The notes beneath the pieces were generated by a model. It was not told where the DNA came from. It did not search any database and saw nothing but the letters and a program-made list of their open reading frames with translations. DNA of 64,000 nt from Waddliaceae bacterium (GTDB lineage: Bacteria; Chlamydiota; Chlamydiia; Chlamydiales; GCA-2709385), in contig PAQS01000019.1 of the NCBI GenBank assembly GCA_002709385.1, forward strand, positions 186,001-250,000. Reading direction: 5' to 3'. Shown one piece after another: positions 4,749 to 24,625 of the stretch (positions are counted from its first letter, which is position 1; each line of letters starts with the position of its first letter). Made by a program: the position numbers and the translations under genes.

Positions 4749-4750
4749 AT

Positions 4751-5503: not shown

Positions 5504-6234
5504 GCAAAATTAACTCTCTTCTTAGTAAACGCCTAGAGAAATCCACTGAATCACCAAAAGCAAAAGCACTTGCACAACATACTGCAGGTGGAGAACGAAA
5601 TAGCTTTGCTGGACTTTTTGGAAGAGGATCTCTTAGTGAAAGCGAAAAAAGTACTCTTGAAGAAATTCTTCGCCAATACACAGAAAACGAAGAAAATATT
5701 CAAAAAGATTTAGAGTTATTAAGCGCTATTACTTCTGAAGTAAAAGCTATAACAAACCAAGCAGCAATCCTCCACGGAGAACGCATCAAACAAGCACAAA
5801 CCATTCTTAAAAAATATCAAGAAGGGGCTTTTACTTCTTGGTTGATAGCTACATATGGAAATCGCCAAACACCTTATAACTTCCTACAATACTATGAATT
5901 TTGGAACTCTCTTCCTAATCCATTACGTCCCAAACTAGATAAAATGCCAAGACAAGCTGTTTATGCTTTAGCAAGTAGGCAAGGATCTTCAGAAGATAAA
6001 CAAAGCATTGTAGAAAAATATAAAGGAGAAACCAAGAAAGAAGTTCTTGATCAAATTAGAGAAGTTTTTCCTCTACCAGATTCCGACCGAAGACGCGTTC
6101 ACTCTGGAGATATTGCAGTTCAAAAGCTTACTCAAGTAGTTGCTTTACTTGCAAAACCAAAATCGCGCTTAAACAAGACACATAAACGCCTCATTCGTAA
6201 TCTTATCTTCCAACTAAACGAGCTTGTATCATGA
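5500..6234 (+). CDS. pGP6-D-like protein (chlamydial CT583 family)
   Basis: A 244-residue charged, mostly helical protein with no signal peptide or membrane segment. It follows parA with an ATGA overlap and precedes purB with another, so three reading frames are coupled. Position and size match chlamydial CT583 and plasmid pGP6-D, whose molecular role is not settled; a partner function for the ParA ATPase is the natural inference. Residues about 55-100 look like a coiled coil. The basic C-terminal part (KSRLNKTHKRLIRN near the end) could contact DNA. No catalytic motif is visible. Family assignment rests mainly on neighbourhood and length. Confidence 0.8.
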   Translation: MSKINSLLSKRLEKSTESPKAKALAQHTAGGERNSFAGLFGRGSLSESEKSTLEEILRQYTENEENIQKDLELLSAITSEVKAITNQAAILHGERIKQAQTILKKYQEGAFTSWLIATYGNRQTPYNFLQYYEFWNSLPNPLRPKLDKMPRQAVYALASRQGSSEDKQSIVEKYKGETKKEVLDQIREVFPLPDSDRRRVHSGDIAVQKLTQVVALLAKPKSRLNKTHKRLIRNLIFQLNELVS

Positions 6235-7667: not shown

Positions 7668-7785
7668 TTTTTTCTTCATATAACTTCTTAATCGATTCCT
7701 TAAACAGGTTCTCGCGCTCTTTTATTTGTTCCAATAGAAGAGTCGTGATTGAATATAAGTTTCTGGGTCATAAATAAATATAAAT

Positions 7786-7813
7786 TTGACTATAGTCTTT
7801 TTTTCTTTATAAT
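7786..7813 (+). promoter_or_regulatory. Predicted housekeeping promoter of the MFS gene
   Basis: TTGACT at 7786-7791 and a perfect TATAAT at 7808-7813 are separated by 16 bases, in AT-rich DNA about 75 bases upstream of the transporter start. This is the best sigma-66/70-type promoter match I saw in the window. Confidence 0.6.
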
Positions 7814-7887
7814 CACTCCGATTTTACAGAATTTTTAAAAGCTCACTTTATTTTTATAAATAAACAGAACCTGTTTCCTCCTATATA

Positions 7888-9102
7888 GTGAATGAAATGA
7901 AAAAAATATTTCAACTTCCTTATCTTCTTATTCTTGCTGTTATTGCAGCTTCTATTGAAATAGAACTATCTGTTCCTAGTTTTCCTGATATGGTGCGACA
8001 CTTTGGATCGACAGAAGAAACAATTCAAAGAACTTTAAGCTTAAATTTCTTCGGTTTTTGTGTATCGAGTCTTTTTTATGGTCCCATTTCAGAAAGTTTT
8101 GGCCGTCGACCTGTCTTTCTTTTTGGAAACATCTTATTTCTTTTTGGAAGTGTTGCCTGTATTTTTGCTGGAAGTATAGAGTTATTAATTGCCTTTCGTT
8201 TTTTTCAAGGCTTAGGAGCAAGTGCTATCTGGGTTGTGACCTTTGCTATTATTGCAGATAACTATCAAGGCTCAGAGTCAATGAAAGTAATAGGGCTCAT
8301 TAACTCAATTATTACAGGATTTATGGCAGGAGCTCCCATACTAGGCGGTATCATTAACGAGCACTTTGGATGGTGGGCAAACTATATTTTTATTGGATTT
8401 TTAAGTTTTACAGCTTTACTGCTTGTTTATTTTTTCCTTCCAGAAACTCTTAAAATAAAAAAACCTCTGGAAACTAAAACAATAAAAAAAGATTACTGGA
8501 CTTTGTGTACAAGTCCTCACTTTCTACTATTAAATACTCTCCCCAACGTAATGGCTGCTGTATATATGTCTTATGTTGCAATTTCCCCTTTTTACTATAT
8601 AGATCAACTTACTTATACATCTTCTGCTTTCGCTTTTCATCAAGGAACACTGGTAGCCTCATTTTCTTTAACAAGTTACTTAAGCGCCCGCATTGTTAAA
8701 AAGTTTGGAGAGCGCAGGAGTATTATTACTGGTGCAGCCCTTACACTATCAAGCACCTTTGGTTTTTTGTTTATTGTACACTTTTTACCAAACACAGCTT
8801 TTCTTATTTCTTTATCTATGATCACATGGGCAATCGGCTGTGCTCTATACTTCAGTATTATTTTTGCTAAATCACTAGAGATTCATCCCGAATTAAAAGG
8901 TCCCGCTTCAGCATTCGCAATGTCTTCACGCACTTTAATTTGTGCTATTTTTGTTACATTTTCTGGAATAATCTACGATGGTTCTCTACAACCTTTTTCT
9001 TACTTTATGATGACAGTGGTCTCTTTAGCAATTGCTCTTGTTCCAAAAATTCTTCCAAAATCAAAGCCTATTTACCCTCAAACAAATACTCAAGCAACTT
9101 GA
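7888..9102 (+). CDS. Bcr/CflA-type MFS exporter
   Basis: A 12-helix major facilitator protein of 404 residues in the inner membrane. It has the layout of the Bcr/CflA drug-resistance subfamily (DHA1). An N-terminal helix begins near residue 8. The loop between helices 2 and 3 carries GPISESFGRRPVFLFGN (the MFS motif A, GxLaDrxGrkp), and the helix 5 region carries AGAPILGGIINEHFGW, the motif C antiporter region. The start is a GTG at 7888; an ATG three codons later at 7897 is equally possible. It stands alone behind its own predicted promoter. The substrate cannot be read from sequence: candidates are antibiotics, host-derived toxic compounds or metabolites. Confidence 0.9.
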   Translation: MNEMKKIFQLPYLLILAVIAASIEIELSVPSFPDMVRHFGSTEETIQRTLSLNFFGFCVSSLFYGPISESFGRRPVFLFGNILFLFGSVACIFAGSIELLIAFRFFQGLGASAIWVVTFAIIADNYQGSESMKVIGLINSIITGFMAGAPILGGIINEHFGWWANYIFIGFLSFTALLLVYFFLPETLKIKKPLETKTIKKDYWTLCTSPHFLLLNTLPNVMAAVYMSYVAISPFYYIDQLTYTSSAFAFHQGTLVASFSLTSYLSARIVKKFGERRSIITGAALTLSSTFGFLFIVHFLPNTAFLISLSMITWAIGCALYFSIIFAKSLEIHPELKGPASAFAMSSRTLICAIFVTFSGIIYDGSLQPFSYFMMTVVSLAIALVPKILPKSKPIYPQTNTQAT

Positions 9103-9278
9103 TCATTTAAATAATTAAGACACAAAGACTCTTACTAAGATAATTAGTAAAAGAGAATAGGAAAAACAGAAAGAAATTTCTTCTATTTGGTTAAAAATAA
9201 AAATTTTCTTTGATATGATGAAGAATCATGCTATGCATGTTCATAGCAGAATTATTGGTAACCAATAGGAGAATAGTG

Positions 9279-9806
9279 ATGCTCGACGAAGAAACTCTCA
9301 CTAAAATTAGAAACGCTCTTAAGCGCACTTTAGCATTGAAAATGACTCGGTCTACATACTGGGAAATTCAGAATATTGTGCTAACAGCTTTAAATGCAGA
9401 CAAAGAAAAAGCAACACAGCTTCTTGATTCTTTGCTAATTGGTCAACCAAGAGGAAAGCTTGCTACAGGTCCTCAACTAGACCTATTAAACTCTATCATT
9501 AATGAGTTTTGCATTCCTCTACGTGTTGCAAAAGACGTATTTGAAAGAGCTGAGTTTCTTAACACAATCGCTTCTGATATCATGGCTCACCAAAATCGTC
9601 CAGTATTCGTAAATCGTGTACGTAGAATCGACGGTGAAGAATTCCAGTTTATGACAGACACAGAAAGCTGTCTACAGCTTCTTAAGCACATGGTTGGTCG
9701 TTTAACAGAATTGAAAAAGTCTGACAAAACGAAAGCAACTCTTGAAGCTAGCGCTGGAACAATTAAAGAATTCAAAGAACTCGTACAAGCACTTGCTGGA
9801 AAATAG
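9279..9806 (+). CDS. CT584-family protein (chlamydial type III secretion-associated)
   Basis: A 175-residue soluble protein. The start at 9279 was chosen because AGGAGA lies upstream with good spacing; a longer frame to 9228 has no such signal. The block PLRVAKDVFERAEFLNTI, followed by FVNRVRRIDGEEF and FMTD, matches what I remember of C. trachomatis CT584 (PIRVAKDIHERGEF, RVDGQEFLLMTD). The gene lies downstream of the CT581-CT583 homologues as in Chlamydia, separated here by purB and the transporter. CT584 has been proposed as a type III secretion needle-tip protein, an assignment that is debated. No signal peptide or transmembrane helix is present. Confidence 0.92.
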   Translation: MLDEETLTKIRNALKRTLALKMTRSTYWEIQNIVLTALNADKEKATQLLDSLLIGQPRGKLATGPQLDLLNSIINEFCIPLRVAKDVFERAEFLNTIASDIMAHQNRPVFVNRVRRIDGEEFQFMTDTESCLQLLKHMVGRLTELKKSDKTKATLEASAGTIKEFKELVQALAGK

Positions 9807-9835
9807 AAACTAGTTTGTTTCTATTTCAATCGCTC

Positions 9836-9866
9836 AGAGCCCTCTTTTAGAGGGCTCTTTTATTTT
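9836..9866 (+). terminator. Intrinsic terminator of the CT584 homologue
   Basis: AGAGCCCTCT (9836-9845) pairs perfectly with AGAGGGCTCT (9849-9858) around a 3-base loop and is followed by a T-rich tail. It lies between convergent genes and may also limit the minus-strand cyclase transcript. Confidence 0.9.
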
Positions 9867-10903
9867 ATTTTTGTAACAGTATAAATTTCGACGGGAGTCT
9901 TTCCTTTAAGAGGAACCGGACCAGATGATTTTCCTTCGCAAAAATTCTGAATTTTCTCCCAAGAATCATTTGTAACCGAAACCCCATTCGGAGTGGCTAT
10001 AGACTGAACTCTTTCTGCTGTATTAACTGTGTCGCCCCAAATATCAAATAGATACTGTCGATGACCCACAATTCCTCCAACAACAGAACCAATATGAATT
10101 CCAACTCGTAAACTCCATTCTGGATTTACTTGTTTTATGATATGAATCATATCCCAACCAGCACGAACGCAATTCAGTACAGGATTGGTAACTTGCGTAA
10201 ACAGCCCTGCGCAGCCCATAAACGCATCACCAATTGTTTTAATCTTCTGCACCTGATGCTTCAAAGATATCTCTTCAGAAGCCTCTACAAAAGCTTGTAA
10301 GTAGCTCCAAACCTCTTCTGGCCCATGTGACTCACAATATTCTGTAAAACCAACAATATCACAAAACATCACAGCTACATTTTGATAAAGCCTAGGTGGT
10401 ACATGTCGGCTTTTTTTTAATTCTTCAACAATAGACGACGGTAAAATAACCCTTAAAAGATCATCAGAACGTTTCTTTTCTAATTCTAAATCTTCCCTAT
10501 ATTGCCTTTCTTTATCTGCAAAATATTTTTTTTCTAAACAAGAACGTACACGAGCTCCAAGAAGTGCTGGTTTAAAAGGTTTAAATAAATAATCATCCGC
10601 TCCAGCTTCTATACACTTTGTTACCCCTTCCATATCAGAAAGAGCGCTAATCATAATTACAGGAATATGTTGAAGATTCGGATCAGACTTAATTTCTCTC
10701 AAAACCTGATAACCATTTATTTTCGGCATCATATAATCAAGCAGAACTAAATCAAAAGCCTCGGATTTTAAACTATCTAATGCTTGCTGACCATCTTCCG
10801 CCATACGTGTTTTATGACCTTTCGAGTGAAGTCTTCTTGAAAGAAGGTCTCTGTTCATTTCATTGTCATCTACAACCAAAATTAATGACTCATTTTCACT
10901 CAT
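9860..10903 (-). CDS. Response regulator with class III adenylate cyclase output
   Basis: A 347-residue cytoplasmic two-domain signalling protein. Residues 6-122 are a receiver domain with acidic pocket DD12-13, phospho-acceptor Asp56 (LLDYMMP) and Lys108 (FKPF). A short coiled linker leads to a class III cyclase domain (about 170-345). This has metal-binding Asp182 (FCDIVGF) and Asp226 (TIGDAF), adenine-specifying Lys222 and Asp287 (FDIWGDTVN), and transition-state Asn294 and Arg298. The Lys/Asp pair predicts ATP rather than GTP as substrate, so phosphorylation probably controls cAMP output. It overlaps the upstream hybrid kinase by four bases (ATGA), so that kinase is the likely partner. 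Confidence 0.95.
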   Translation of the reverse strand: MSENESLILVVDDNEMNRDLLSRRLHSKGHKTRMAEDGQQALDSLKSEAFDLVLLDYMMPKINGYQVLREIKSDPNLQHIPVIMISALSDMEGVTKCIEAGADDYLFKPFKPALLGARVRSCLEKKYFADKERQYREDLELEKKRSDDLLRVILPSSIVEELKKSRHVPPRLYQNVAVMFCDIVGFTEYCESHGPEEVWSYLQAFVEASEEISLKHQVQKIKTIGDAFMGCAGLFTQVTNPVLNCVRAGWDMIHIIKQVNPEWSLRVGIHIGSVVGGIVGHRQYLFDIWGDTVNTAERVQSIATPNGVSVTNDSWEKIQNFCEGKSSGPVPLKGKTPVEIYTVTKIK

Positions 10904-13221
10904 GAACTAAAGACTCCTTCTTTTATTTTTGCCGGCCAAAAACCCATTAATTCAGCTAAAGCTTTTGGGTTGTCAGGCAAAATTTTAGCTCCGCTTGTAA
11001 AAACGCTTTTTTGGTCTGCCACACCAATTACCCTAGAACTTTGTATATAAACTTCTTTATATCTCATTCTAGCGTGATACATTAGTTCTCTAGAGCTTTC
11101 AACATCATCATCCCAAGAAATAATCACTAACCCAGGACTTTCAAATACAAGAACCTCAAAAGCAAGATCAATATTATTTATCCAAAGTAATTCACATGAA
11201 AAACGACTAATTTCATTTGATAATTCTCTCCGATTCGCTTCAGAAAAACCAAAACACAAAACCTTTTTTTCTATTAGACGCTTACACTCTTTATCTAAAA
11301 TTCTATCTAATTGGCTCCAGTCTCCAATATAAACCTTGTAATCACAAACTGATTGAATATCTAAAACCCTCTGAGCCTCTCTTTTTTCCAAAGAAATAAA
11401 AGGTGTTTTCGCTTCCATGAGTTCATTCCAATCTTTTTCTTCAATGACCATTTTCCGATCAAGTAGAACAGCTAAAGGTCGAATCGTTGCAATAAACTCT
11501 CTCCCGCCCTTAACCTTTCTCATGCAATGCAAACGATAACCCTTTAAGGAAGCAAATTGCTCAAGATCCTCTAGAAGCTTTTTATCTTTAGAAAAAAGAA
11601 GAACATTCAACGTTTTCTGTACATCAGCTTCCAGTCGATACTTTTGTGTGAGCTGACTAAGCTCAGCTCTTTGCATCCAATTTCCACTAGACCCCACAAC
11701 CTTGCTTACTTTACTTATATCTTGATCACGAAGAATTAACGATAAATTCGTCGGCAAAGCAAGTGTGAAAATAGATCCTTTTCCTTGTTGACTAGTGACA
11801 GTTAGCGATCCCCCTAAAACTTGGCTATATTTTTGACAAATAGCCAAACCAAGACCCGTTCCTCCAAATTGACGTGTTGTACTCGCCTCTGCCTGATGAA
11901 ATGCCTGAAAAACTTTTTTTTGTTGTTCAGCACTCATTCCAATTCCGGTATCAGAGACTTCGATAAAAACCCAAGGTGTTCCCTGTATAAGCTTAGAGCT
12001 TGCAGATAAGGAAATCTTTCCTTTTTTTGTAAACTTACAAGCGTTGCTTAAAAGATTAAAAAGAGTTTGACGTAATTTCGTTGAGTCGGAGCTCATTTCC
12101 TCTATATCTGAATCACAGTTAACAAAGAGCTGGTTACCTCCATCAAGGGCTGCTCTTTCTACACTCATAGAAACTTCATCTAACAAGTCAGATAAAATAA
12201 ACTGCTCTAAATGCAATTCCATCTTACCAGCTTCCATTTTAGATAAATCAAGAATATCATTGATCACATGTAACAAATGTGTTCCAGCACGATGTATTTT
12301 ATCTACATCACCTCTCAAATTTCCATCCTGCTCAGATAAATCAAGTTCTTCTAAAAGCATTTCACTATAGCCCAAAATTGCATTAAGCGGGGTTCGCAAC
12401 TCATGGCTCATTGTAGCAAGAAACTCACTCTTCGTTTTACTTGCTGCTTCTGCTTTTTCTTTGGCTCGACGAAGAGCTTCATGATTCGCTTTGCGTTTTG
12501 TTACATCTTTACAAAATATACAAACACCAGAACAAACACTCTTTATCTGAAGAGGATTAACACTAAGCTCATAATCACAAACTCCACCACCCTCTTTAAT
12601 GTGTGTGTACTCACACACAAATGACTCACCTGCAAGCCCTCGATTATAAAGAGTCTGCCAAAATCTTTGTGAAGGACCTGGCAACCCCTCCACCATATGA
12701 AAACCACTTTCAAGATCTACATCAAAACACACAGAAAAAAAGCTATAACACGGTTGATTTCCTACTACCATCTTGTAGTTTGCGTCTATAGACCAAATGG
12801 GATCTGCACTGTTCTCAATTAAACTAAGTAAATCACTCCGAGCCCTGTCTATTTTAATAAAAAGGTTTTTCCACTCTTTAACCTGCCTACCCAAAGCAGT
12901 AATACGGGAATCAACATCACCTTTTTTAGCTTGTAATTTTTCAAGATTTTTATGAACGCTTGATACCAGATGATTTAGAGATTCTAAACGTTTAGAACGC
13001 GCTTTTTCTTTTTGCGAGTGTTCCACACGCTTCTGAAGAAGAACTCTAAGTTCTTTAGCCTGCTGAAGAGATGTTGATTCAAAACTCGCACTACGGCGTT
13101 CCAACTTCACATAAGTAGCACTAACAGAAGACATTAGACGCGAAAGTGTTCTAGAAAGGTTCCCTTCATTACCAAAAAATTCTTTAATTTGTTTTTCAGC
13201 AATACGATGAAAAGATTTCAC
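10900..13221 (-). CDS. Hybrid-type sensor histidine kinase
   Basis: A 773-residue protein starting at a GTG. Residues about 30-125 are coiled coil, and about 130-245 form a PAS-like sensor domain (NSADPIWSID at its start). The dimerisation/phosphotransfer domain has SHELRTPLN with His273. The HATPase domain follows, with the N box near NLLSNACKF and the G boxes DTGIGM and GGTGLGL. The C-terminal ~250 residues resemble degenerate receiver folds without a clear phospho-acceptor Asp. No transmembrane helix is visible, so it probably senses a cytoplasmic cue. It is translationally coupled to the cyclase response regulator downstream. Confidence 0.93.
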   Translation of the reverse strand: MKSFHRIAEKQIKEFFGNEGNLSRTLSRLMSSVSATYVKLERRSASFESTSLQQAKELRVLLQKRVEHSQKEKARSKRLESLNHLVSSVHKNLEKLQAKKGDVDSRITALGRQVKEWKNLFIKIDRARSDLLSLIENSADPIWSIDANYKMVVGNQPCYSFFSVCFDVDLESGFHMVEGLPGPSQRFWQTLYNRGLAGESFVCEYTHIKEGGGVCDYELSVNPLQIKSVCSGVCIFCKDVTKRKANHEALRRAKEKAEAASKTKSEFLATMSHELRTPLNAILGYSEMLLEELDLSEQDGNLRGDVDKIHRAGTHLLHVINDILDLSKMEAGKMELHLEQFILSDLLDEVSMSVERAALDGGNQLFVNCDSDIEEMSSDSTKLRQTLFNLLSNACKFTKKGKISLSASSKLIQGTPWVFIEVSDTGIGMSAEQQKKVFQAFHQAEASTTRQFGGTGLGLAICQKYSQVLGGSLTVTSQQGKGSIFTLALPTNLSLILRDQDISKVSKVVGSSGNWMQRAELSQLTQKYRLEADVQKTLNVLLFSKDKKLLEDLEQFASLKGYRLHCMRKVKGGREFIATIRPLAVLLDRKMVIEEKDWNELMEAKTPFISLEKREAQRVLDIQSVCDYKVYIGDWSQLDRILDKECKRLIEKKVLCFGFSEANRRELSNEISRFSCELLWINNIDLAFEVLVFESPGLVIISWDDDVESSRELMYHARMRYKEVYIQSSRVIGVADQKSVFTSGAKILPDNPKALAELMGFWPAKIKEGVFSS

Positions 13222-13458
13222 GAGCTACACCCACACATCTTACCCGTTTATAGAGACAATTACCGTCAATATCGCAGGTCTATTTCCTTCTGTCACTAAT
13301 AAAATTTTGTTGAAACTTTGGTTATAACTCTTTTTTTTCTGTTGATATCTATCAATAACTATGTTGATTAATCTAAGGGCTGTTTATAAACCAATCATTT
13401 GTAAACAAATACCAACAGGTTGCAAACAATCTCTGTTCACTATTTTTCTCAAGGAAAA

Positions 13459-13486
13459 ATGTTTATAAATTTTAACTTATAAACAT
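13459..13486. repeat. Perfect 10-bp inverted repeat
   Basis: ATGTTTATAA (13459-13468) and TTATAAACAT (13477-13486) are exact inverted copies separated by 8 bases. It could be an operator in the gap between two divergent genes. No protein can be assigned. Confidence 0.6.
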
Positions 13487-13526
13487 TTCCACCAAGACTG
13501 AAGAAGAAGAAAAATATATTTCTTCT
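13485..13526 (+). repeat. Intergenic repeat element, copy 1
   Basis: ATTTCCAC, 8 bases, then AAGAAGAAGAA and a near-palindromic half (ATATATTTCTTCTT). Copies 2 and 3 at 20577-20620 and 20842-20880 keep the same spacing between CCAC and AAGAAGAAG. Confidence 0.6.
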
Positions 13527-13628
13527 TACAAAAATCTTCAAAGAAACTGTGGTTTTGAAAATTCATTTGATAAAATACGCGCTCTTCGGTAATTGCTTAG
13601 AGTAAACAGCACTAAGTAAGGTTCTCCC

Positions 13629-14975
13629 GTGAAGTTTTGTGGAACACTCTTTTTCAGTTTTATTTTTGCTTTTTTTTCTCTATTTCTTGCGGCCAATACA
13701 GAAGAGATTAAGTCGTTAAATAATGCAAAAATGTACTACTTAAAAGGAAAAGAGCATTTCGAAAACAAGCAATATCAAGAAGCTTTAGATAGTTTCCGAA
13801 AATCTTTACACGAAGATCCCAGTCATTTAGAGCTAAATCACCTAATTGGACGAGCTGCTTATGAAACAGGAGATTTTGAAGAAGCTCTCTTTGCTTATGA
13901 GAGAGCGCTTGTTTTAGATCCAAAATTTACGCAAAGCAGATTAGAAAAAGCACGCACTTTAATTGCTCTTGGGTCACATGATGAAGCAAAAAACGAACTT
14001 CTTAAAGTATTAGCTGCTAATATTCCCCCTGAGGTCCGAGCAAATGTAGAGCTTCTTTTATCTGCAATGGTAGAGAAAAAAAATCATCATTTTAGTGGTG
14101 CCGTTGTACTTGCTTATACTTTTGATTCAAATGCTACACTTGGCACCGACACTGGTATTCCTTCTCCTTTTGGTCCAACTTTCCCTGAAGCAGATCCATC
14201 TGAAGAGAATGACCAAATTTTTGCAGTTACAGCTGTATTAAATCATAAATATCCGCTTCCTCAAAAAGGACTTACACTAAAAAACGGACTAATAACCTAC
14301 TTTTCAGACAATCACGAACTAAACAGTAATGATCTTCTTTTAGTCATGTTGAGTAGTGGAGTTAACTACTTGTGTGGAAGACACAGTTTAGATTTTTCTA
14401 TTGCATGGAACTACCTAGAACTCAACAATGCACGCTATCAGAATAACTGGAGATTCAATTTCAAACACGCCATTCCCATTACTCAAAGACAAATGATCAC
14501 AAGTACTTATAATTTTACCCAAAGACATCATTTTCCAACTCTAGGTGCAACGCTAGATAATAACAGCGGTTTTATACATGGAATTTCCTTAGCTTGGTTA
14601 ATGAACGAAACACCCAAACGAAGCTGGTCACTCAACTCCAGTTGGCGCTACGATAACTCTCCAAGAGATTCCAACCCCGACCTTGCTTACCACAGGTCAG
14701 ATATAAGCTTACGCTTCAATCAGATAATAACAAACTGTCTTTCTTTAAGCGCCAAAGCGGGCTATCGAATGGATTGGTATACAAGGACTCACCTTATTTA
14801 CACAGATAGAACCCGCCATGATAAAGCTTATTTCACTTCTTTGGGTTTAGCCTTTAACTTTCTCAAGCGTTGTACGATCAATACTGTGCTTGAGTACATA
14901 AATAATCACTCGAACATACCCACAAATGAGTATGACTCTGTTAAATGTATAAATTCTTGGGCAACGACATTTTAA
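13629..14975 (+). CDS. TPR-containing outer-membrane beta-barrel protein
   Basis: A 448-residue secreted protein starting at a GTG, with a signal peptide at residues 1-21 (hydrophobic core, then LAANTEE). Residues about 32-150 hold three or four TPR repeats (AKMYYLKGKEHFENKQYQEA and related units). From about residue 155 onward there are alternating aromatic/polar beta strands typical of a 12-16-strand outer-membrane barrel, ending in Phe (TTF) as is usual for BAM substrates. The TPR-plus-barrel layout resembles the DUF560/Slam and porin-like TPR families. Function is not certain: surface protein export or adhesion are options. It stands alone. Confidence 0.8.
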   Translation: MKFCGTLFFSFIFAFFSLFLAANTEEIKSLNNAKMYYLKGKEHFENKQYQEALDSFRKSLHEDPSHLELNHLIGRAAYETGDFEEALFAYERALVLDPKFTQSRLEKARTLIALGSHDEAKNELLKVLAANIPPEVRANVELLLSAMVEKKNHHFSGAVVLAYTFDSNATLGTDTGIPSPFGPTFPEADPSEENDQIFAVTAVLNHKYPLPQKGLTLKNGLITYFSDNHELNSNDLLLVMLSSGVNYLCGRHSLDFSIAWNYLELNNARYQNNWRFNFKHAIPITQRQMITSTYNFTQRHHFPTLGATLDNNSGFIHGISLAWLMNETPKRSWSLNSSWRYDNSPRDSNPDLAYHRSDISLRFNQIITNCLSLSAKAGYRMDWYTRTHLIYTDRTRHDKAYFTSLGLAFNFLKRCTINTVLEYINNHSNIPTNEYDSVKCINSWATTF

Positions 14976-15113
14976 TTTTTTTTATCCTGTGACTTAGTCG
15001 CGTCAAATGCGAGATTAGCTAGCCATTGGAGGTAAGAAAAAATAGAGGTGTCTCAGAACAAAAGCTTCCTGTTATAATGAAAGAAAGCATGTGGAACATC
15101 AGGAGCAAGTTGT

Positions 15114-15314
15114 ATGTTGGGATGGACCGAAATTCTTGTCGTTCTTCTTTTAGCTTTGTTGCTTTTTGGAGGAAAAAAACTTCCAGAGTTAGCTAGAAGC
15201 CTTGGAGAAGGAATTCGAGAATTCAAAAAAGCATCACAGGATTTCACCTCAGAAGTCGAACAAAAACCAGCCGAAAAGAAATCTGAAGTATCTACAGGAG
15301 AACAGGAAATCTAA
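15114..15314 (+). CDS. tatA: Sec-independent translocase subunit TatA
   Basis: A 66-residue protein with the TatA/E plan. One N-terminal membrane helix starts with [16 protein letters not shown], followed by the [14 protein letters not shown] hinge and an amphipathic helix with FKKA, then a charged tail. TatA oligomers form the passage for folded proteins through the inner membrane. tatC follows five bases downstream, and a single tatA/E here suggests a minimal TatA-TatC system. The Rieske protein at 33393-33902 carries a twin-arginine signal and is a likely substrate. Confidence 0.95.
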
Positions 15315-15319
15315 TTTTT

Positions 15320-16258
15320 ATGGCTTCTTCACGCAAAAATCCCAATCAAATGGGTTTTTGGGAACACCTAGAAGAGTTCCGAAAAACAATCGTTTACATG
15401 CTTGGTGTTGTTTTTGCTGCCTTTCTTTCTTCTCTTTACTTTTATCAAAGTATTTTTGCTTTTACGACAACTCCGTTAAGTGAAATACAGCCCACAAAAC
15501 ACTGTCTTACTCGGCAAACAAGCAAAAGCGAATGGATTACAAATACAACAAAAACGGATCTTTATTACGAAAAAAATTCTAATGAAGTTGTTGTGGAACA
15601 CTCTTCTGGTGTAAAAAAAACTCAGAATGAGCAATTTCTTATCCCCCCTGGAGAACACTTACTTCTAGCAAAACCAACTCCCGCGGTTTCTTTGTCTATT
15701 CTTGGACCTCTCGATGGAATGACCAGCACTTTAAAAATTTGTTTTTGGTTTTCTCTTGTTTCCTCTTCTCCAATTTGGCTGCTCTTTTTACTACGCTTCA
15801 TTAGTCCTGGTCTACGACTGGGTGAAAAACGCCTTATTATCCCCTTCTTTGTCTTATCGCTACTTATGCTTAGCTTGGGGTCACTTTTTGCCTTAAAGCT
15901 TACTATACCCGTTGCAAACGCGTTTTTGAGCAGTTTCAATGAGGGTTTAGCAAATAACTTTTGGTCATTCACAAACTACATCGACTACACAATCATTTTG
16001 ATTTTATCAAACGCCCTTGCTTTTGAATGTTTTTTATGTCTTTTCTTGCTTGTACATGTGGGAATCATTACATCTGAACAAATGAGAAAAAAAAGAAGGC
16101 TTGCCATTGTTCTTGTCTTCTTTTTATCTGGTATTTTAACTCCTCCAGAAGTCTTCACACAGTGCGCCCTTGCTTTGCCAATTTTGCTCATGTATGAGTT
16201 AACTATTATCTATGGAACGCTACGTCACCGCAAGATCAGCGACCCTCTAGCAGCCTAA
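15320..16258 (+). CDS. tatC: Sec-independent translocase subunit TatC
   Basis: Polytopic inner-membrane receptor for twin-arginine signal peptides. The N-terminus has the conserved FWEHLEEFRK element (about residues 11-20), and six membrane segments follow, including ISPGLRLGEKR between helices 2 and 3. The protein is 312 residues against about 250 usual. The extra length lies mainly in the first periplasmic loop (about residues 45-125), which is polar and lysine-rich. It is five bases downstream of tatA, without an obvious separate ribosome site. Confidence 0.93.
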   Translation: MASSRKNPNQMGFWEHLEEFRKTIVYMLGVVFAAFLSSLYFYQSIFAFTTTPLSEIQPTKHCLTRQTSKSEWITNTTKTDLYYEKNSNEVVVEHSSGVKKTQNEQFLIPPGEHLLLAKPTPAVSLSILGPLDGMTSTLKICFWFSLVSSSPIWLLFLLRFISPGLRLGEKRLIIPFFVLSLLMLSLGSLFALKLTIPVANAFLSSFNEGLANNFWSFTNYIDYTIILILSNALAFECFLCLFLLVHVGIITSEQMRKKRRLAIVLVFFLSGILTPPEVFTQCALALPILLMYELTIIYGTLRHRKISDPLAA

Positions 16259-16311
16259 TCACGAAGTCCGTATAGTCAAATTTCGACTAATTCAAGAATG
16301 CGGATTTTACC

Positions 16312-17790
16312 ATGTCTTCTCCATCAAAAATGAATCATTTTATCAACAACGAAGATCACGCTCCTGAATCTAATCAATGGATTCCCTCATACAATCCTTT
16401 CACTGGAGAAGTATGGAATGAAGTTCCTCGTGGAAATGAAAATGATGCCAAATCTGCAATTAGTGCTGCTTATAATGCATTTCAAGAGGGCTCTTGGAGG
16501 CAAATGACACCATCCGGCCGAGGTGCTTTATTAAGAAAGTTAGGAGATCTTATTGCAAGGGATGCTGAAAAACTCGCGCGCATTGAAGTTTTAGATAATG
16601 GAAAACTTTTTGCGGAAATGCACGGGCAGCTAAAATATATTCCGCAGTGGTTTTATTACTACGCTGGGCTTGCAGATAAAGTCGAAGGTTCTGTTATTTC
16701 CACTGACAAACCTGAAACCTTTGCATACACAAGCCACGAACCTCTTGGTGTTGTTGTAGGAATTACCCCATGGAACTCTCCACTTTTAATTACAGCCTGG
16801 AAACTTGCTCCCGCCCTTGCAGCAGGAAATACCGTCATTCTTAAACCTTCAGAACATACAACAGCAAGCTCTCTAGAATTTGTAAAACTTGTAAAAGAAG
16901 CTGGTTTTCCTCCTGGAGTTGTAAACGTTGTAAGCGGTTTTGGCCACGAAGTTGGAGAGGCCCTAATAAGAGATCCCCGGGTAGCAAAAGTAAGCTTTAC
17001 AGGAGGAGAAGAAGGTGGAAGAAAAGTCTATTCAGCAGCAGCCGATGGAATCAAAAGAGTTACTCTGGAATTAGGGGGAAAATCACCAAATATCGTATTT
17101 GAAGACGCAGAAATTGAAAACGCTGTCAAAGGTGTTGTTTCAGGAATTTTTGCCGCAAGTGGACAAACCTGTATTGCTGGTTCTCGTTTATTGGTACAAT
17201 CTTCTATTCACGACCAATTTGTGGAACAACTTCTGGAATTAGCGCGCACAGCAAAAATGGGAAATCCTCTGGATTCAGATACTCAGGTTGGACCAGTAGC
17301 TACCGTTCCACAATACGAAAAAATCCTTTCTTATATTGAAGTTGCGAAAAAAGAAGGGGCTTCTTGTGTATTAGGAGGAAAGAAAGCACGGTGTGGAAGC
17401 GGATGGTTTGTAGAACCGACTATTTTTACTGGGGTGAAAAATAATATGCGGATAGCACAAGAAGAAGTTTTTGGTCCTGTTTTAAGTATTATTCCTTTTG
17501 AAACGCCAGAAGAAGCAATTTCTATAGCCAATGACATTCCTTATGGTCTTGCTGCTGGCGTATGGACTCGTGATATGCGTAAAGCATCAAAATGTGCAAA
17601 AGAGCTTCAGGTTGGTACTGTTTGGGTAAACACCTATCGTTCCATATCATATATGAGCCCATTTGGCGGCTATAAACGCTCTGGAATTGGAAGAGAGGGT
17701 GGCAAAGAAGCTATTTATGATTATTTACAAACAAAAAGCGTAATGATCAACCACTCAACAGAAGTAGCCAATCCTTTTGTTATGCGTTAA
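16312..17790 (+). CDS. NAD(P)-dependent aldehyde dehydrogenase
   Basis: A 492-residue ALDH-superfamily enzyme that oxidises an aldehyde to its acid in the cytoplasm. The Rossmann region has ITPWNSPLLI and KPSEHT (coenzyme-binding Lys). The catalytic glutamate lies in LELGGKSPN near residue 257, and the catalytic cysteine in GQTCIAGSR near residue 291. EEVFGPV and PFGGYKRSG are further family signatures. The substrate cannot be read; betaine-aldehyde or general aldehyde dehydrogenases are closest in style. A second Met at residue 7 could be the true start. It is monocistronic, with its own terminator, and faces the convergent fliE gene. Confidence 0.95.
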   Translation: MSSPSKMNHFINNEDHAPESNQWIPSYNPFTGEVWNEVPRGNENDAKSAISAAYNAFQEGSWRQMTPSGRGALLRKLGDLIARDAEKLARIEVLDNGKLFAEMHGQLKYIPQWFYYYAGLADKVEGSVISTDKPETFAYTSHEPLGVVVGITPWNSPLLITAWKLAPALAAGNTVILKPSEHTTASSLEFVKLVKEAGFPPGVVNVVSGFGHEVGEALIRDPRVAKVSFTGGEEGGRKVYSAAADGIKRVTLELGGKSPNIVFEDAEIENAVKGVVSGIFAASGQTCIAGSRLLVQSSIHDQFVEQLLELARTAKMGNPLDSDTQVGPVATVPQYEKILSYIEVAKKEGASCVLGGKKARCGSGWFVEPTIFTGVKNNMRIAQEEVFGPVLSIIPFETPEEAISIANDIPYGLAAGVWTRDMRKASKCAKELQVGTVWVNTYRSISYMSPFGGYKRSGIGREGGKEAIYDYLQTKSVMINHSTEVANPFVMR

Positions 17791-17795
17791 GAGCA

Positions 17796-17822
17796 GGAGA
17801 GCTTGTGCTCTCCCTCTTTTTT
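17796..17822 (+). terminator. Intrinsic terminator of the aldehyde dehydrogenase gene
   Basis: GGAGAGC (17796-17802) pairs with GCTCTCC (17807-17813) around TTGT and is followed by CTCTTTTTT. It separates convergent transcription from the fliE operon, whose last codons begin at 17821. Confidence 0.85.
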
Positions 17823-18171
17823 ACTGCATGTGTTTAATTTCGCTCCAAGCATCTAAAAGCTTGTTCCGAATTTCCATCATCATTTTGAACGCGGTTTCAG
17901 CCTCATCCATTGCCATTGTAACTTCAGAAACATCTTCAACCTCTCCAGCTGCCAAACGCTGTATCTGCGCATCTGCCTCGTGCTGCAAAGTATTCACCTC
18001 GCTTAAATAGCCCCCCAGAATTTTTTGAAATGTGTACGTTTCTTCCAGTTGAGCTGGTGCTGGAGTTAAGTGAACATTGATTTCACCTAAACCCTTAGCC
18101 TGAGTCATTGGCTTAGGTCTCAACATTAATGGATTTAGCTTTGTAAGTGCCTCAGAACCAAAACCGCTCAT
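17821..18171 (-). CDS. fliE: Flagellar hook-basal body protein FliE
   Basis: A 116-residue protein with the FliE pattern: a variable N-terminus, then a C-terminal helical domain with AMDEAETAFKMMMEIRNKLLDAWSEI, close to the family's end (xxxAEtaFqxmxxvRNKLveAYqEi). FliE joins the MS ring to the proximal rod in the periplasm. It is the third gene of a flgB-flgC-fliE operon, the usual bacterial order, with three bases between flgC and fliE. Its presence argues for a real flagellum, because I know of no rod genes in pathogenic chlamydiae, which have only a few flagellar-like genes. Confidence 0.95.
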   Translation of the reverse strand: MSGFGSEALTKLNPLMLRPKPMTQAKGLGEINVHLTPAPAQLEETYTFQKILGGYLSEVNTLQHEADAQIQRLAAGEVEDVSEVTMAMDEAETAFKMMMEIRNKLLDAWSEIKHMQ

Positions 18172-18173
18172 GG

Positions 18174-18647
18174 CTAACCTCTCCTACTAATTCTCATTGC
18201 ATTTTCACTCATTCGTTGTGAAACTGAAATAATACTCAAATTTGCTTCATACGCAGCAGAAGCGATCTGCATATCAGCCATTTCTTGTGCAACGCTTATT
18301 TTTGGGTAATAGACATATCCTGCGTCAGGTGAACCAGCTTTTCTTGCTGCTGGGTGAGTGGGGTCAAAGACTTTTCTAATATGATCATTTAGCTCAGAAA
18401 CTTCTTTTACCGCAACCCCATCTGCTACATCACCATTTACCTTGTTGCGTCGGAAGTTTTCTGAAAGAATTCTCTCAAAAACAGGCACTTGTCGCGCATA
18501 AGGAACAAAATTTCCGTTTGCCGTGCGTTTACCGTTATCGACTGAATGCGCGTTTGCTATGTTATTGGAAATCACGTTCATCCAACCACGATTTGCTTTC
18601 AAACCAGTCGCTGCAATCTGTCCTGCTCGATTCAATTTAGATATCAT
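18174..18647 (-). CDS. flgC: Flagellar basal-body rod protein FlgC
   Basis: Proximal rod protein of 157 residues, exported by the flagellar type III apparatus. The N-terminal rod signature has SNNIANAHSV near residues 27-36. A central DPTHPAARKAGSPDAGYVYYP follows, as in FlgC, where the PDAG-like turn is conserved. The C-terminus has YEANLSIISVSQRM, matching the FlgC end YqANvxxixxxk. It lies 11 bases after flgB and three bases before fliE on the minus strand. Confidence 0.96.
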   Translation of the reverse strand: MISKLNRAGQIAATGLKANRGWMNVISNNIANAHSVDNGKRTANGNFVPYARQVPVFERILSENFRRNKVNGDVADGVAVKEVSELNDHIRKVFDPTHPAARKAGSPDAGYVYYPKISVAQEMADMQIASAAYEANLSIISVSQRMSENAMRISRRG

Positions 18648-18658
18648 AGCTTACCTTC

Positions 18659-19033
18659 CTATCGACCACCACGAATGGCTTCTTTCACCATTGCGGATTT
18701 CTGTTGATAAAATTGCGCATACATATTGTAAGAACCTGAGTTAGAGCGAAGTTTAAGCATCTCCATATCCATATCCACATCATTGCCGTTATTTCTTACA
18801 GGTGTGTTTCTTGGTCGTTCTGTGTAACCGCGAATATCTGAATAGTGTGCACTAGTTCCTCCGGAAAGAGCTTCACGGAGTGCTGTATCGAATTTAAATT
18901 CTTGACGTCGGTAATAAGGAGTGTTGGCGTTTGCAATGTTTCCAGCAATTACCTTGTGAGCTTTGCTATGCATCTGCATTAGCTGCCCCAACAATGTAAA
19001 ATTTTTATTTCCAATTTTATTGATGAAATACAT
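18659..19033 (-). CDS. flgB: Flagellar basal-body rod protein FlgB
   Basis: A 124-residue proximal rod protein. The N-terminal part has IAGNIANANTPYYRRQEFKF near residues 33-52, the rod/hook family motif. The conserved NDVDMDMEM lies near residue 84, and the C-terminal helix near YNMYAQFY contributes to rod packing. It is the first gene of the operon. A GGGG ribosome site lies immediately upstream, and a sigma-54-type promoter lies about 35-50 bases upstream of its start. Confidence 0.96.
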   Translation of the reverse strand: MYFINKIGNKNFTLLGQLMQMHSKAHKVIAGNIANANTPYYRRQEFKFDTALREALSGGTSAHYSDIRGYTERPRNTPVRNNGNDVDMDMEMLKLRSNSGSYNMYAQFYQQKSAMVKEAIRGGR

Positions 19034-19067
19034 CTTGGCCCCCTAATTCGGTCTTCAGGGGACCTAA

Positions 19068-19083
19068 AGCAGGTGCCGTGCCA
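19068..19083 (-). promoter_or_regulatory. Sigma-54 (RpoN) promoter of flgB-flgC-fliE
   Basis: On the minus strand the sequence is TGGCACG-N4-CTGCT, which matches TGGCACG-N4-TTGCW in all but one base, with the required 10-base distance between GG and GC. Transcription would start roughly 20 bases upstream of the flgB ATG. Confidence 0.75.
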
Positions 19084-19103
19084 AAACGAAACAGATTAGA
19101 AAT

Positions 19104-19119
19104 CAATTCATTAGAATTG
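19104..19119. promoter_or_regulatory. Inverted repeat upstream of the sigma-54 promoter
   Basis: CAATTC (19104-19109) and GAATTG (19114-19119) form a perfect dyad with a 4-base gap, about 20 bases upstream of the -24 box. This could be a binding site for the enhancer-binding protein that sigma-54 requires, although such sites are often farther away. Confidence 0.35.
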
Positions 19120-19156
19120 AACCCTTATAAAAAAGAAAAAAAAGAGCGAATTTTGC

Positions 19157-19903
19157 CTAGTCGACAGACCAATCTATTGGTGCCATTCCTTGTTTTTCTA
19201 AAAATTCATTTGTTTTAGAAAAATGGCGGCTTCCAAAAAAGCCATTATAAGCAGAGAAAGGAGATGGGTGTGGACAAGACAAAACAAGATGTGAGTGCTT
19301 AATACCGTTTAAGATACGGGAACATTTTTCTTTAGCAGAAGCTCCCCATAAAAGAAAAACAAGAGGTTTTTGCCTACTTGCTAAAACTTCCACTACTCGG
19401 TCGGTAAAAACTTCCCACCCTTTTCCATAGTGAGATTTTGGCTGACTACGTCTTACTGTTAGAGTCGCGTTTAACAACAAGACCCCTTGTTGAGCCCACT
19501 TAAGTAAATGACCATGGTTTGGAATAGGTAAACCAAGATCTGCTTGTAGTTCCTTATAGATATTTTGCAAAGAGGGAGGAATTTTTATCCCTTTTTGAAC
19601 ACTAAAACTTAAACCTTCAGCCTGCCCTTTTCCGTGGTAGGGATCCTGCCCCATGATCACAACTTTCACATCATCATAAGCAGTCTGCTTTAAAGCTTGA
19701 TATATAAGAGGTTCCGGAGGAAAAACTTCCACTCCCGCAGCCTTTTCCCCCTTTAAAAACTCTTGCAATTCAAGCATGTAAGGTTTTTTTAATTCCTCAG
19801 CAAGAAGTTCACGCCAAGTTGTTTTTTTAGTTGTTGCTTCAGGAAAAGAAGTACTCATAAAAATGATTAAGTGGTCGGTTGATTTAAGTTCCACAGAAAT
19901 CAT
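19157..19903 (-). CDS. ung: Uracil-DNA glycosylase
   Basis: Removes uracil from DNA to start base-excision repair. The 248-residue frame has the family 1 motifs: GQDPYHGKGQAEGLSFSV near residues 85-102 with the catalytic Asp, LLLNATLTV for the uracil pocket, and HPSPFSAYNGFFG near the C-terminus with the catalytic His. The first Met (19903) has only a weak ribosome site; a second Met 15 residues in (MSTSF) is an alternative, and family members start close to the later WRELL region. The gene diverges from the small CT606.1 homologue, as in Chlamydia (CT607/CT606.1). Confidence 0.97.
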   Translation of the reverse strand: MISVELKSTDHLIIFMSTSFPEATTKKTTWRELLAEELKKPYMLELQEFLKGEKAAGVEVFPPEPLIYQALKQTAYDDVKVVIMGQDPYHGKGQAEGLSFSVQKGIKIPPSLQNIYKELQADLGLPIPNHGHLLKWAQQGVLLLNATLTVRRSQPKSHYGKGWEVFTDRVVEVLASRQKPLVFLLWGASAKEKCSRILNGIKHSHLVLSCPHPSPFSAYNGFFGSRHFSKTNEFLEKQGMAPIDWSVD

Positions 19904-19960
19904 ACTCGCTTTATCAAGATCTGAAAAGGATTTTTTCTACTTACTGCGAGTAAACTGCCG

Positions 19961-19990
19961 TTGACAGCAAAAGAATTTCCTGCCTAGAAT
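19961..19990 (+). promoter_or_regulatory. Predicted promoter of the CT606.1 homologue and possibly tRNA-Pro
   Basis: TTGACA (19961-19966) and TAGAAT (19985-19990) with an 18-base spacer lie about 45 bases upstream of the ATG at 20035. No terminator separates the short gene from the tRNA, so the two may be co-transcribed. Confidence 0.5.
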
Positions 19991-20034
19991 GGTTGTTTAT
20001 TCATAATCTTAGATTAAAACAATTTTGTTTTCTT

Positions 20035-20289
20035 ATGACCAATTTAGCTGAAAACTTTGTTATTCGTTTCATTAACATCACAAAAAAGAAAGATGGTTTC
20101 TTTGCTAACTTTCGCGTAAAGGGAATCCGTGGTGGAGCTTCTTTTTCTGCCTCTGTCTCTGTGGATTTAGATGCAGCGAATGTTGACCCGACAGATACGA
20201 TTGAAGATATCGTTGAAGCTTGTTCTAAAATTGCTATTCGTGAATTAAGAAACTCAGAATTTCATCTAGAAGGCTTTACAGCCGCATAA
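20035..20289 (+). CDS. Conserved chlamydial small protein (CT606.1 position)
   Basis: An 84-residue soluble protein; the ATG at 20035 was preferred over an upstream ATG at 19993 because the extra N-terminus (FIHNLRLKQF) looks like leader DNA. The sequence alternates strands and helices (VIRFINITKKKDGFFANF, then RGGASFSASVSVDLD). It divergently neighbours ung, as CT606.1 does in C. trachomatis. The name rests on position and size. Function unknown. Confidence 0.75.
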   Translation: MTNLAENFVIRFINITKKKDGFFANFRVKGIRGGASFSASVSVDLDAANVDPTDTIEDIVEACSKIAIRELRNSEFHLEGFTAA

Positions 20290-20299
20290 ATCTTACTAT

Positions 20300-20374
20300 C
20301 TGGGTGTAGCGCAGCTTGGCCAGCGCACTTGCATGGGGTGCAAGGGGTCGGAGGTTCGAATCCTCTCACCCAGA
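20300..20374 (+). tRNA. tRNA-Pro (GGG anticodon)
   Basis: The acceptor arms CTGGGTG and CACCCAG pair fully, with discriminator A. The D arm contains the expected GCGCAGC..GCGC pattern. The anticodon stem CTTGC/GCAAG encloses ATGGGGT, giving anticodon GGG. The T arm GGAGG-TTCGAAT-CCTCT follows. CCA is not encoded. Confidence 0.95.
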
Positions 20375-20576
20375 TTTATTTCAAACAAACTCCATTCTAT
20401 AAATTTAATTATTCAACTTTGTGGGTAACACGTTCATAACTTTGTTTTTTCTTGTTTATAAAACAAATTATTTTGTGTGTACATGTGCCGCATTGTTCGT
20501 AAATATCAACTTATGATCTGTTCATAAGCAAAACATGAACAAGCAAAAGATCTCTTGAAAGTGGCGACTTATGCAC

Positions 20577-20620
20577 AAATCCACAGTTTCTGAAGAAGAA
20601 GAAAAAATATATTTCTTCTA
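20577..20620 (+). repeat. Intergenic repeat element, copy 2
   Basis: AAATCCAC, 8 bases, then AAGAAGAAGAAAA and ATATATTTCTTCT. It is the closest relative of copy 1 at 13485-13526. It abuts the exact TTATGCACA box at 20569-20577. Confidence 0.6.
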
Positions 20621-20841
20621 TATAAATCTTCATAAAGCTTGTGAAAAGGCAAGAATTTGGGAAATTTTCAGATTTTTATTTTTGTGGATACTTTGTTCAT
20701 TTCTCGAGAGAAAGACTTGTGTACATATTTTGATGAAAACTTGCAGAGAACGTTCATTTGTGTATAAGTTTGGAGTTTCCTTCAGGAAGCTTACAGATTA
20801 CAGACAGAAGTTTTATCAGGGAAAAAGGCTTATTTACTGAC

Positions 20842-20880
20842 ATTTCCACAGCATCTAAAGAAGAAGAATATTCTCATCAT
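20842..20880 (+). repeat. Intergenic repeat element, copy 3
   Basis: ATTTCCAC, 8 bases, then AAGAAGAAGAATATT; the second half diverges from copies 1 and 2. It lies just upstream of the glmU-like gene. Confidence 0.5.
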
Positions 20881-20933
20881 ATAGAATATATATTCTCTAT
20901 AGAATGTGGAACTTTTATGGAGACTTAAACAAT

Positions 20934-21623
20934 ATGAAATCACTTACCGCTCATTCATTTTTCCAACTAAAGGATTATATAGCTTCAAGTCTCTTCGATC
21001 AGATCACCTACGTATGGGAAGCCCTTGAAAACATTGAGTCTTTTCTACAAAAACAAAATCTAGGAAAAATCGAATGTGAAATTCCAGATGGAGTGTTCCT
21101 CAAAGATATTGAAAAAATTTCAATCGGCAAAGGAACTGTTGTGGAACCAGGTGCTTATATTCAAGGGCCTTGTTTTATTGGAGAAAATTGTCAGATTAGA
21201 CAAGGCGCTTACATAAGAGGGAATGTCGTCACAGGAAACAATTGTGTTATTGGTCATTGCTCAGAAATAAAAAATTCTATTTTTTTGAATAAAGCACAAG
21301 CTCCCCATTTTGCTGATGTAGGAGATTCTATTCTTGGTAACAATACAAATTTAGGAGCTGGAACAGTATGCTCGAATTTAAAGTTGACTAAGAGTGAGGT
21401 TATTGTGCATTTTCAGGGAGAAAAAATTTCAACTAAGCGCCGAAAATTTGGTGCTATTCTGGGTGATGGAGCACAAACAGGTTGTAATACTGTTTTAAAC
21501 CCAGGGACAATTTTATTTTGTGGGTCTTGTACCTATCCCAACACAACGGTTGGTGGTGTTGTTCCTGAAAATCATATTGTGAAAAGCGCTTCTAAGTCCC
21601 GAATCATCCCCATGAAGAGGTAA
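20934..21623 (+). CDS. GlmU-like left-handed beta-helix acyltransferase (CT629 position)
   Basis: A 229-residue hexapeptide-repeat protein. An N-terminal helical part (1-50) is followed by a left-handed beta-helix of hexapeptide turns (GKGTVVEPGAYI, GENCQIRQGAYIRGNV, GDSILGNNTNLGAG, GDGAQTGCNTVLNPG). The HFADVGDSILG region resembles the GlmU/acetyltransferase active-site loop. There is no nucleotidyltransferase domain, so it matches only the C-terminal half of GlmU, as I recall for chlamydial CT629. It probably acylates a sugar nucleotide; the substrate is unproven. I chose the ATG at 20934, with GGAG upstream, rather than 20904. ispA follows four bases downstream. Confidence 0.82.
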   Translation: MKSLTAHSFFQLKDYIASSLFDQITYVWEALENIESFLQKQNLGKIECEIPDGVFLKDIEKISIGKGTVVEPGAYIQGPCFIGENCQIRQGAYIRGNVVTGNNCVIGHCSEIKNSIFLNKAQAPHFADVGDSILGNNTNLGAGTVCSNLKLTKSEVIVHFQGEKISTKRRKFGAILGDGAQTGCNTVLNPGTILFCGSCTYPNTTVGGVVPENHIVKSASKSRIIPMKR

Positions 21624-23297: not shown

Positions 23298-23548
23298 AAA
23301 AACCTATTTGTTATTGTGACTATAAAAAACAAGTTAAGAATTTTAATAAAAAAAAGTTTTCTCGCAAGTTTTTATTGGTTTTAAAAATTTATTTATTTTT
23401 TTGTGAAATTTTTGAATTTTGTGGTGTTGCTCCCAAGCTACTTCGGTTTTTTGCCTTGATCTGTTAGTTTTTTGGTATCCCTTATTTCCATAGAGAAATA
23501 AACTTATCTTCTCATCTTTTGTAACCAAGAACCATAAGGACTCAGTTG

Positions 23549-24625
23549 ATGTCTAATCCAAATGAGCTAGCTCAAAAAAAGCAAGTTTTAGATCAAGCGG
23601 TAGCGCAGATTCGCAAGCAATTTGGCGATGGTGCAATTATGTCATTGGGGCACGGAGCTTCAAATAAAGAAATTGATGTAATTAAAACTGGAGCTTTATC
23701 TTTGGATATTGCTTTGGGAATTCAAGGAGTTCCAAGGGGGCGTATTGTTGAGCTGTATGGACCTGAATCATCTGGTAAGTCAACTCTTGCTCAGCATATT
23801 GTTGCAAATGCTCAAAAGAACGGTGGGTTGGCTGCGTATATTGATGCAGAGCATGCGCTAGATCCTGTTTATGCAGCCAAGATAGGGGTGAACCTTGATG
23901 AGTTGATGATAGCCCAACCTGACTGCGGAGAAGAAGCTTTAAACATCGCTGAAACATTGGCTCGTTCCAATGCTTTAGACATTATTGTTGTAGATTCTGT
24001 TGCGGCTCTTGTGCCCAAGGCTGAGTTAGATGGAGAGATTGGAGACACATTTGTTGGCTTGCAAGCTCGCATGATGTCACAGGCAATGAGAAAGCTAACA
24101 GCAAGCTTAGCTCGTTCTAATACTTGTGCTATTTTTATTAACCAAATCCGTGAAAAAATTGGGGTTATGTTCGGAAATCCAGAGACAACCCCTGGTGGGC
24201 GAGCGCTTAAATTTTATTCTTCTGTTCGTTTGGATATTCGCCGGACTGGTTCTATTAAGGGAGCGGATAACCAAGACATTGGAAACCGTGTAAAAGTTAA
24301 AGTTGCTAAAAATAAATTAGCGCCTCCATTTAGAACAGCAGAGTTCGATATTCTTTTTGCCGAAGGAATTTCTCAGGCTGGTTCACTGATTGATATTGGT
24401 GTAGAACAGGGGATTATTGATAAAAAAGGTGCTTGGTTTAGCTACAAAGGGAACCGTTTAGGACAAGGAAGAGAAGCTGTTCGAAACTTACTTAAAGAAG
24501 ATGACGCTCTCTTTGTTGAAATTGAAACGAAGGTTTATGAAAAACTGAAAGGGATACCTGCTCAAGAGGGGAAAAAACCTCAGAAAGCAGAGACTCAGCA
24601 AGAGCTTCTTGCATCAGTTGAATAA
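23549..24625 (+). CDS. recA: Recombinase A
   Basis: DNA strand-exchange ATPase for homologous recombination. The 358-residue length is normal. Walker A is GPESSGKST near residues 68-76, Walker B lies in [11 protein letters not shown], and the MAW-type [22 protein letters not shown] forms the L2/DNA-binding region. I chose ATG 23549 rather than the TTG one codon upstream because AAGGA has better spacing to it. It converges with ygfA, the order I recall for CT650-CT649 in Chlamydia. Confidence 0.99.

Follow-up and report, generated by a model that had tools for sequence, protein, structure and literature searches.

Chlamydial origins of replication have so far been placed mostly by skew and by adjacency to hemB; in C. 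pecorum and other Chlamydia, oriC was assigned upstream of hemB by skew and Ori-Finder (PMC3932018). The dnaA genes of Waddlia are unlinked to the skew minimum, and neither marks the origin (PMC2878342). The basal unwinding system (BUS) of Bacillus subtilis and other bacteria comprises tandem DnaA boxes, a spacer of at most 16 nt and at least three trios with a central A (NAN), in AT-rich DNA (PMC8287927). In the bipartite origins of Helicobacter and other Epsilonproteobacteria two DnaA-box clusters, split by coding DNA, flank dnaA, and unwinding takes place in oriC2 (PMC5043019).

How does an origin candidate beside a glmU-like gene compare with these systems? We analysed 64,000 nucleotides, hereafter the window, which are bases 186001–250000 of a 254-kb contig (C19) from a 3.15-Mb Chlamydiota genome in 49 contigs. 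An earlier note on this DNA had called a candidate origin in the gap at 20376–20933. The call is supported by the skew, by a significant cluster of DnaA boxes, by a module found with a model from which this genome was held out, and by the occurrence of that module at skew switches elsewhere, in complete genomes of other families. We conclude from the sequence that the gap is very probably the chromosomal oriC, an origin of known type with new phylum-specific features. The gap and its borders are:

20376–20933, no strand: predicted oriC gap, gene-free and AT-rich, between tRNA-Pro(ggg) and the glmU-like gene, with the skew switch, the box density and the conserved modules
20299–20375, plus strand: tRNA-Pro(ggg), left border of the predicted origin (ARAGORN and Rfam)
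20934–21623, plus strand: glmU-like acetyltransferase gene, right border (NCBIfam; a longer start at 20904 is possible)

The Rfam search returned nothing but tRNA.

The strand switch expected of a bacterial oriC is present, for the contig rather than for a closed chromosome: the cumulative G–C minimum of the window lies at 19,815, next to the 558-bp gap, which has 29.9% GC against 38.5% in the window. Raw skew is −0.112 at 1–13,221, −0.044 at 13,222–20,375 and +0.137 at 20,376–64,000. Sampled from its first base, the ~206 kb of the contig left of the gap has mostly negative GC skew, clearly so in 15 of 20 five-kb bins and within ±0.025 in the other five. The right arm occupies only 48 kb of the contig, the final 4 kb of which has a skew of +0.106. 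At third codon positions the plus-strand skew flips at the gap from −0.27 to +0.31 overall. Left of the gap it is −0.226 in plus-strand and −0.344 in minus-strand genes; right of it, +0.308 and +0.314, respectively. Since the flip is present in genes of both orientations, it is not an artefact of the coding strand. The switch from C>G to G>C, and its coincidence with a gene-free AT-rich gap, were thus correctly described in the earlier note, which had named equal skew on counting whole genes as the refuting outcome; counted in this way, the two sides have opposite third-position skew. At 60000–64000, within the otherwise positive right arm, skew drops to about zero over 4 kb, possibly through a local inversion or a recent insertion.

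The cluster of DnaA boxes in the gap exceeds chance. Exact TTATNCACA occurs at 20569(+) and 20759(−), the two boxes already claimed, against 0.04 expected; none of 1000 dinucleotide shuffles of the gap reaches two. The near matches claimed with them amount to 16 copies of TTATNNACA at no more than one mismatch, against 4.5 expected, a number likewise attained in 0 of 1000 dinucleotide shuffles. Among the 500-bp bins of the window, near-boxes are densest in one that lies in the gap (15 against a mean of 3.0). Outside the modules described below, the boxes form two groups:

20420–20527, minus strand: left box array, with TTACCCACA at 20420, TTATGAACG at 20431, TTATAAACA at 20453, TTACGAACA at 20494 and TTATGAACA at 20519
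20683–20767, minus strand: boxes between modules A and B, GTATCCACA at 20683–20691 and TTATACACA at 20759–20767

The first three boxes of the left array are spaced by 11 and 22 bp. Throughout the phylum, same-strand boxes upstream of glmU show spacing peaks at 11, 22 and 36–37 bp, which would fit DnaA protomers stacking on one face of the helix. The canonical TTATNCACA, the only form considered earlier, is a minority form; TTATNAACA predominates across the phylum. We rejected canonical TTATNCACA as the defining box: its genome-wide frequency is no higher than that of a reversed control. The same is true of TTATNAACA, so that only local clusters and the module are informative. The third-densest cluster of near-boxes in the window, at 48801–49300, lies in AT-rich DNA near greA and is without a module.

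The gap carries two tandem copies, A and B, of a module of ~85 bp that did not figure in the earlier note. Its parts are, in order, a box TTATNNACA, a second half-box TCCACA(G), AAG trios, an AT-rich core and a mirrored trio/box arm. Aligned across the phylum, the unit reads TTATNNACA – TCCACA(G) – spacer – (AAG)3–5 – AT-rich – TTCTT – TGTGGAA.

20569–20649, plus strand: module A, with box TTATGCACA at 20569–20577, half-box TCCACA at 20580–20585, (AAG)x3 at 20593–20601, AT-rich core at 20602–20629 and mirrored half-box TGTGAAA at 20640–20646
20834–20917, plus strand: module B, with box TTACTGACA at 20834–20842, half-box TCCACA at 20845–20850, (AAG)x3 at 20858–20866, AT-rich core at 20867–20903 and mirrored half-box TGTGGAA at 20905–20911

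The AT cores lie at the 98th–99th percentile of instability in the window, though they are not its least stable DNA; together with the low GC content of the gap they correspond to the AT-rich unwinding element of a bacterial oriC. In modules A and B, and in a third copy, C, exactly 15 nt separate the 9-mer box from the first AAG, with the half-box TCCAC(A) inside, and all three modules have the layout of a BUS. They differ from the described BUS (PMC8287927) in several respects: TTATNAACA is the usual first box in chlamydiae, AAG trios stand in place of the common TAG, the core is closed by an inverted arm, there are three modules, and dnaA is not adjacent. We rejected the idea that the mirrored arms form a hairpin or another RNA structure. 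RNAalifold gave no conserved pairs, and we therefore read the mirror symmetry as protein-binding or trio arms. Pairwise identities among the module copies are all similar, at 0.7–0.9, in a gap-tolerant alignment that equalises them, and so we draw no inference from them on recent duplication.

Is the module peculiar to this genome? We found glmU orthologues in 111 of 116 chlamydial genomes and read forty 20-kb regions around them. Words enriched upstream of glmU were TTATGAACA, TTATCAACA, TTCCACAGC, AAGAAGAAGA and ATATAT. R1, a model of sequence alone, was trained on 29 of these units from other genomes, with the genome of the window and all Chlamydiaceae left out. In the entire 3.15 Mb of this genome R1 finds only three modules, at 41–46 bits and all within 7.5 kb of one another: A with 45.7 bits (E 1.8e-11, whole genome; genome absent from training), B with 40.8 bits on the plus strand, and C. 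The next-best match is the mirror strand of module B (18.2), followed by noise at or below 15.9 bits. The mirrored arm thus appears as a minus-strand match, of 18.2–18.3 bits in module B and of up to 43.6 bits in Chlamydiaceae.

R1 matches 115 of the 116 Chlamydiota genomes (E≤0.05). At least 78 of the 89 non-Chlamydiaceae genomes having a glmU match carry the module no more than 1.3 kb upstream of glmU, and at least 49 of these lie outside the training set. In glmU homologues from records labelled as other phyla, R1 found nothing above noise. Some records carry the titles Verrucomicrobia, Acidobacteria or Gemmatimonadetes although their contigs match genomes of the Chlamydiota set; they are evidently chlamydial. 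Eight public MAG records (L227, L230, L231, L233, L237, L245, L248, L257) look chlamydial despite being titled Acidobacteria or Verrucomicrobia; seven of them have the module, and several have matches among the contigs of the Chlamydiota set. Downstream of the gap, recA (23546–24625) is on the plus strand here and on the minus strand in nearly all relatives with the order glmU–ispA–recA, a small local inversion.

Does the module mark skew switches in other chromosomes? Several relatives show weak local skew, or have the minimum of the 20-kb locus kilobases off the module. Such minima are too noisy for a phylum-wide test, and we therefore took 20-kb samples across chromosomes, up to ~490 kb on each side of the module. 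In Waddlia chondrophila (G026) the sampled skew has opposite signs on the two sides of the module. The same sign change is seen in a second genome (G109), except that the sample taken 90 kb to the left is close to zero, and at the module in a Chlamydia (G013), with samples at ~180 kb. A fourth genome (G027) is mixed, with positive skew 50 kb left of the module and one sample masked (all N).

The Chlamydiaceae place the same module elsewhere. Among the matches listed, none of 22 Chlamydiaceae has it upstream of glmU; wherever the flank was read, it stands directly upstream of hemB. R1, which was never shown a Chlamydiaceae sequence, thus recovers the published oriC (PMC3932018), with the same skew behaviour; the neighbouring gene is hemB, whereas here it is glmU. 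The Chlamydiaceae module is near-palindromic, scoring on both strands, with no second separate copy among the matches listed. Several genomes of another family (f2) also have the module upstream of hemB, and some of them carry a glmU copy as well. An origin near hemB in the present genome would agree with the assignment in Chlamydia by skew and Ori-Finder (PMC3932018) and with the module found there in some other chlamydiae. However, hemB of the window (53729–54808, minus strand) lies 33 kb from the gap, the distance already noted. Skew is positive to the left and to the right of hemB, and R1 detects no module near it in this genome; we regard such an origin as refuted. The earlier note had seen a shift relative to hemB. 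Gene order does differ, but the polarity is the reverse: given the frequency of the glmU module outside the Chlamydiaceae and its absence from those 22, glmU is the common site and hemB the exception.

The third module, also absent from the earlier note, lies 7.1 kb left of the main gap:

13222–13628, no strand: another gap resembling an origin (31% GC), bordered by a hybrid histidine kinase gene and a TPR–tatC pair
13477–13552, plus strand: module C, with box TTATAAACA at 13477–13485, TTTCCAC at 13486–13492, (AAG)x3 at 13501–13509, AT core, TTCTTCTT at 13520–13527 and CTGTGG at 13548–13553
15320–16258, plus strand: tatC (Pfam TatC), following the TPR gene of module C

Boxes TTATAAACA stand at 13381(−), 13460(−) and 13477(+) of this gap, and its 12 near-boxes, against 3.2 expected, were equalled in 0 of 1000 shuffles. 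Might initiation occur mainly or equally here, leaving the glmU gap secondary? Module C equals A and B in the quality of its boxes, trios, AT core and mirror arm (41.0 bits; E 5.2e-10, whole genome), a tatC-site copy 0.3–0.45 kb upstream of tatC recurs in four Parachlamydiaceae-type genomes (G052, G053, G104, G109), and raw skew is somewhat less negative between the two sites than to the left of both. Yet third-position skew between module C and the glmU gap is still that of the left arm (−0.21 and −0.19), and C is therefore not the main switch point; the skew minimum is at 19.8 kb, and most Chlamydiota, among the matches listed, have the module only at glmU. Initiation at module C on these terms is improbable. 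Module C is an extra copy with all the structural parts, whose role we infer to be more likely that of a regulatory or DnaA-titrating site or of an occasional second opening site. As in the Epsilonproteobacteria (PMC5043019), coding DNA divides two box clusters; here, in contrast, each cluster has a complete module, 7 kb lie between them, and dnaA is on other contigs.

Could all the modules be DnaA-titrating or -switching sites resembling datA and DARS, the skew switch having arisen in some other way, for instance through an inversion or a wrongly joined contig? Such sites are known from the literature as box clusters outside oriC, and module C may well be one. We give the proposal very little credence as a whole: skew switches fall at the module in independent complete genomes, the module matches the published position of oriC in Chlamydiaceae (PMC3932018), and it includes trios and an AT core, neither of which a titration site requires.

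If the glmU gap is the origin, how might it open? DnaA binding, unwinding and helicase loading, as we infer them, would run as follows. DnaA protomers would occupy the 9-mer box arrays, which consist mostly of the chlamydial variant TTAT[C/G]AACA along with canonical TTATNCACA, same-strand boxes lying about one helical turn apart in the bound array. DnaA would then be guided onto the strand with the (AAG)3 trios, which start 15 nt past the box, and the AT-rich core would melt. In modules A and B an inverted trio/half-box arm closes the far side of each AT core; DnaA assembly from both sides is therefore possible, and could load two helicases for bidirectional replication.

Which DnaA might do so? 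An adjacent dnaA or dnaN is typical of oriC, not required. The two dnaA genes of this genome are on other contigs (C31 and C22; L001, L002), neither near the predicted origin. In 30 of 30 genomes DnaA1 has K[T/A]HST in place of the RDHTT of E. coli and B. subtilis, the Asp of the recognition helix being absent; DnaA2 keeps DHST, again in 30 of 30. In E. coli DnaA it is the TnCACA portion of the box that the recognition helix reads (PMC5742627); the literature searched yielded no paper on which base E. coli Asp433 contacts. We hypothesize that box position 6 is A instead of C because DnaA1 lost this Asp. For DnaA ChIP in Waddlia, the authors report the DnaA1/DnaA3 data to be unusable. A broader and tentative reading, which we hold to be possible but rather doubtful, is an ancestral mirror-symmetric, multi-copy chlamydial origin in which the paralogues would read two different box types lying side by side, DnaA1 (Thr for Asp) acting on TTATNAACA and DnaA2 (Asp kept) on TCCACA-type boxes. 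Modules would have been duplicated among the nearby glmU, tatC and hemB sites, the Chlamydiaceae keeping or gaining the hemB copy and losing that at glmU. If there are two such readers, DnaA1 and DnaA2 should have distinct preferences among TTATCAACA, TTATCCACA and TTTCCACAG boxes.

Relative to the papers searched, the phylum-wide module, the variant box TTATNAACA alongside an altered DnaA1 recognition helix, and the extra copies at tatC or hemB appear new. The Chlamydia oriC upstream of hemB (PMC3932018), the BUS (PMC8287927) and the unlinked dnaA of Waddlia (PMC2878342) were already known. No paper treating DnaA-trios together with Chlamydia was found in the literature searched; single DoriC/Ori-Finder predictions near glmU may already exist. 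Because the module is so widely recognisable, the origin can be located in draft genomes. With it, assays of DnaA binding and of opening have a precisely defined DNA target in organisms that resist manipulation, and what each of the two chlamydial DnaA paralogues does becomes testable. Among living relatives the origin copies occupy different gene sites, a rare case that allows origin relocation to be followed.

Several other genes near the gap deserve mention. A flagellin gene (51468–53123; NCBIfam, weak-to-moderate matches) and genes like flgB/flgC/fliE (17821–19033; by sequence resemblance only) are unusual for chlamydiae. A cbb3-type oxidase gene, ccoN, together with a 1355-aa multi-domain cytochrome c protein that has a SoxX-like match (35286–42076), suggests respiratory capacity beyond that of Chlamydia. 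At 4739–6234, 14 kb from the predicted origin, a parA-like gene and a UPF0137 gene adjoin thrS; UPF0137 we take to be the family of the chlamydial plasmid protein pGP6-D. The thrS–parA–gp6D group is near the origin in other families too, perhaps with a role in chromosome partition.
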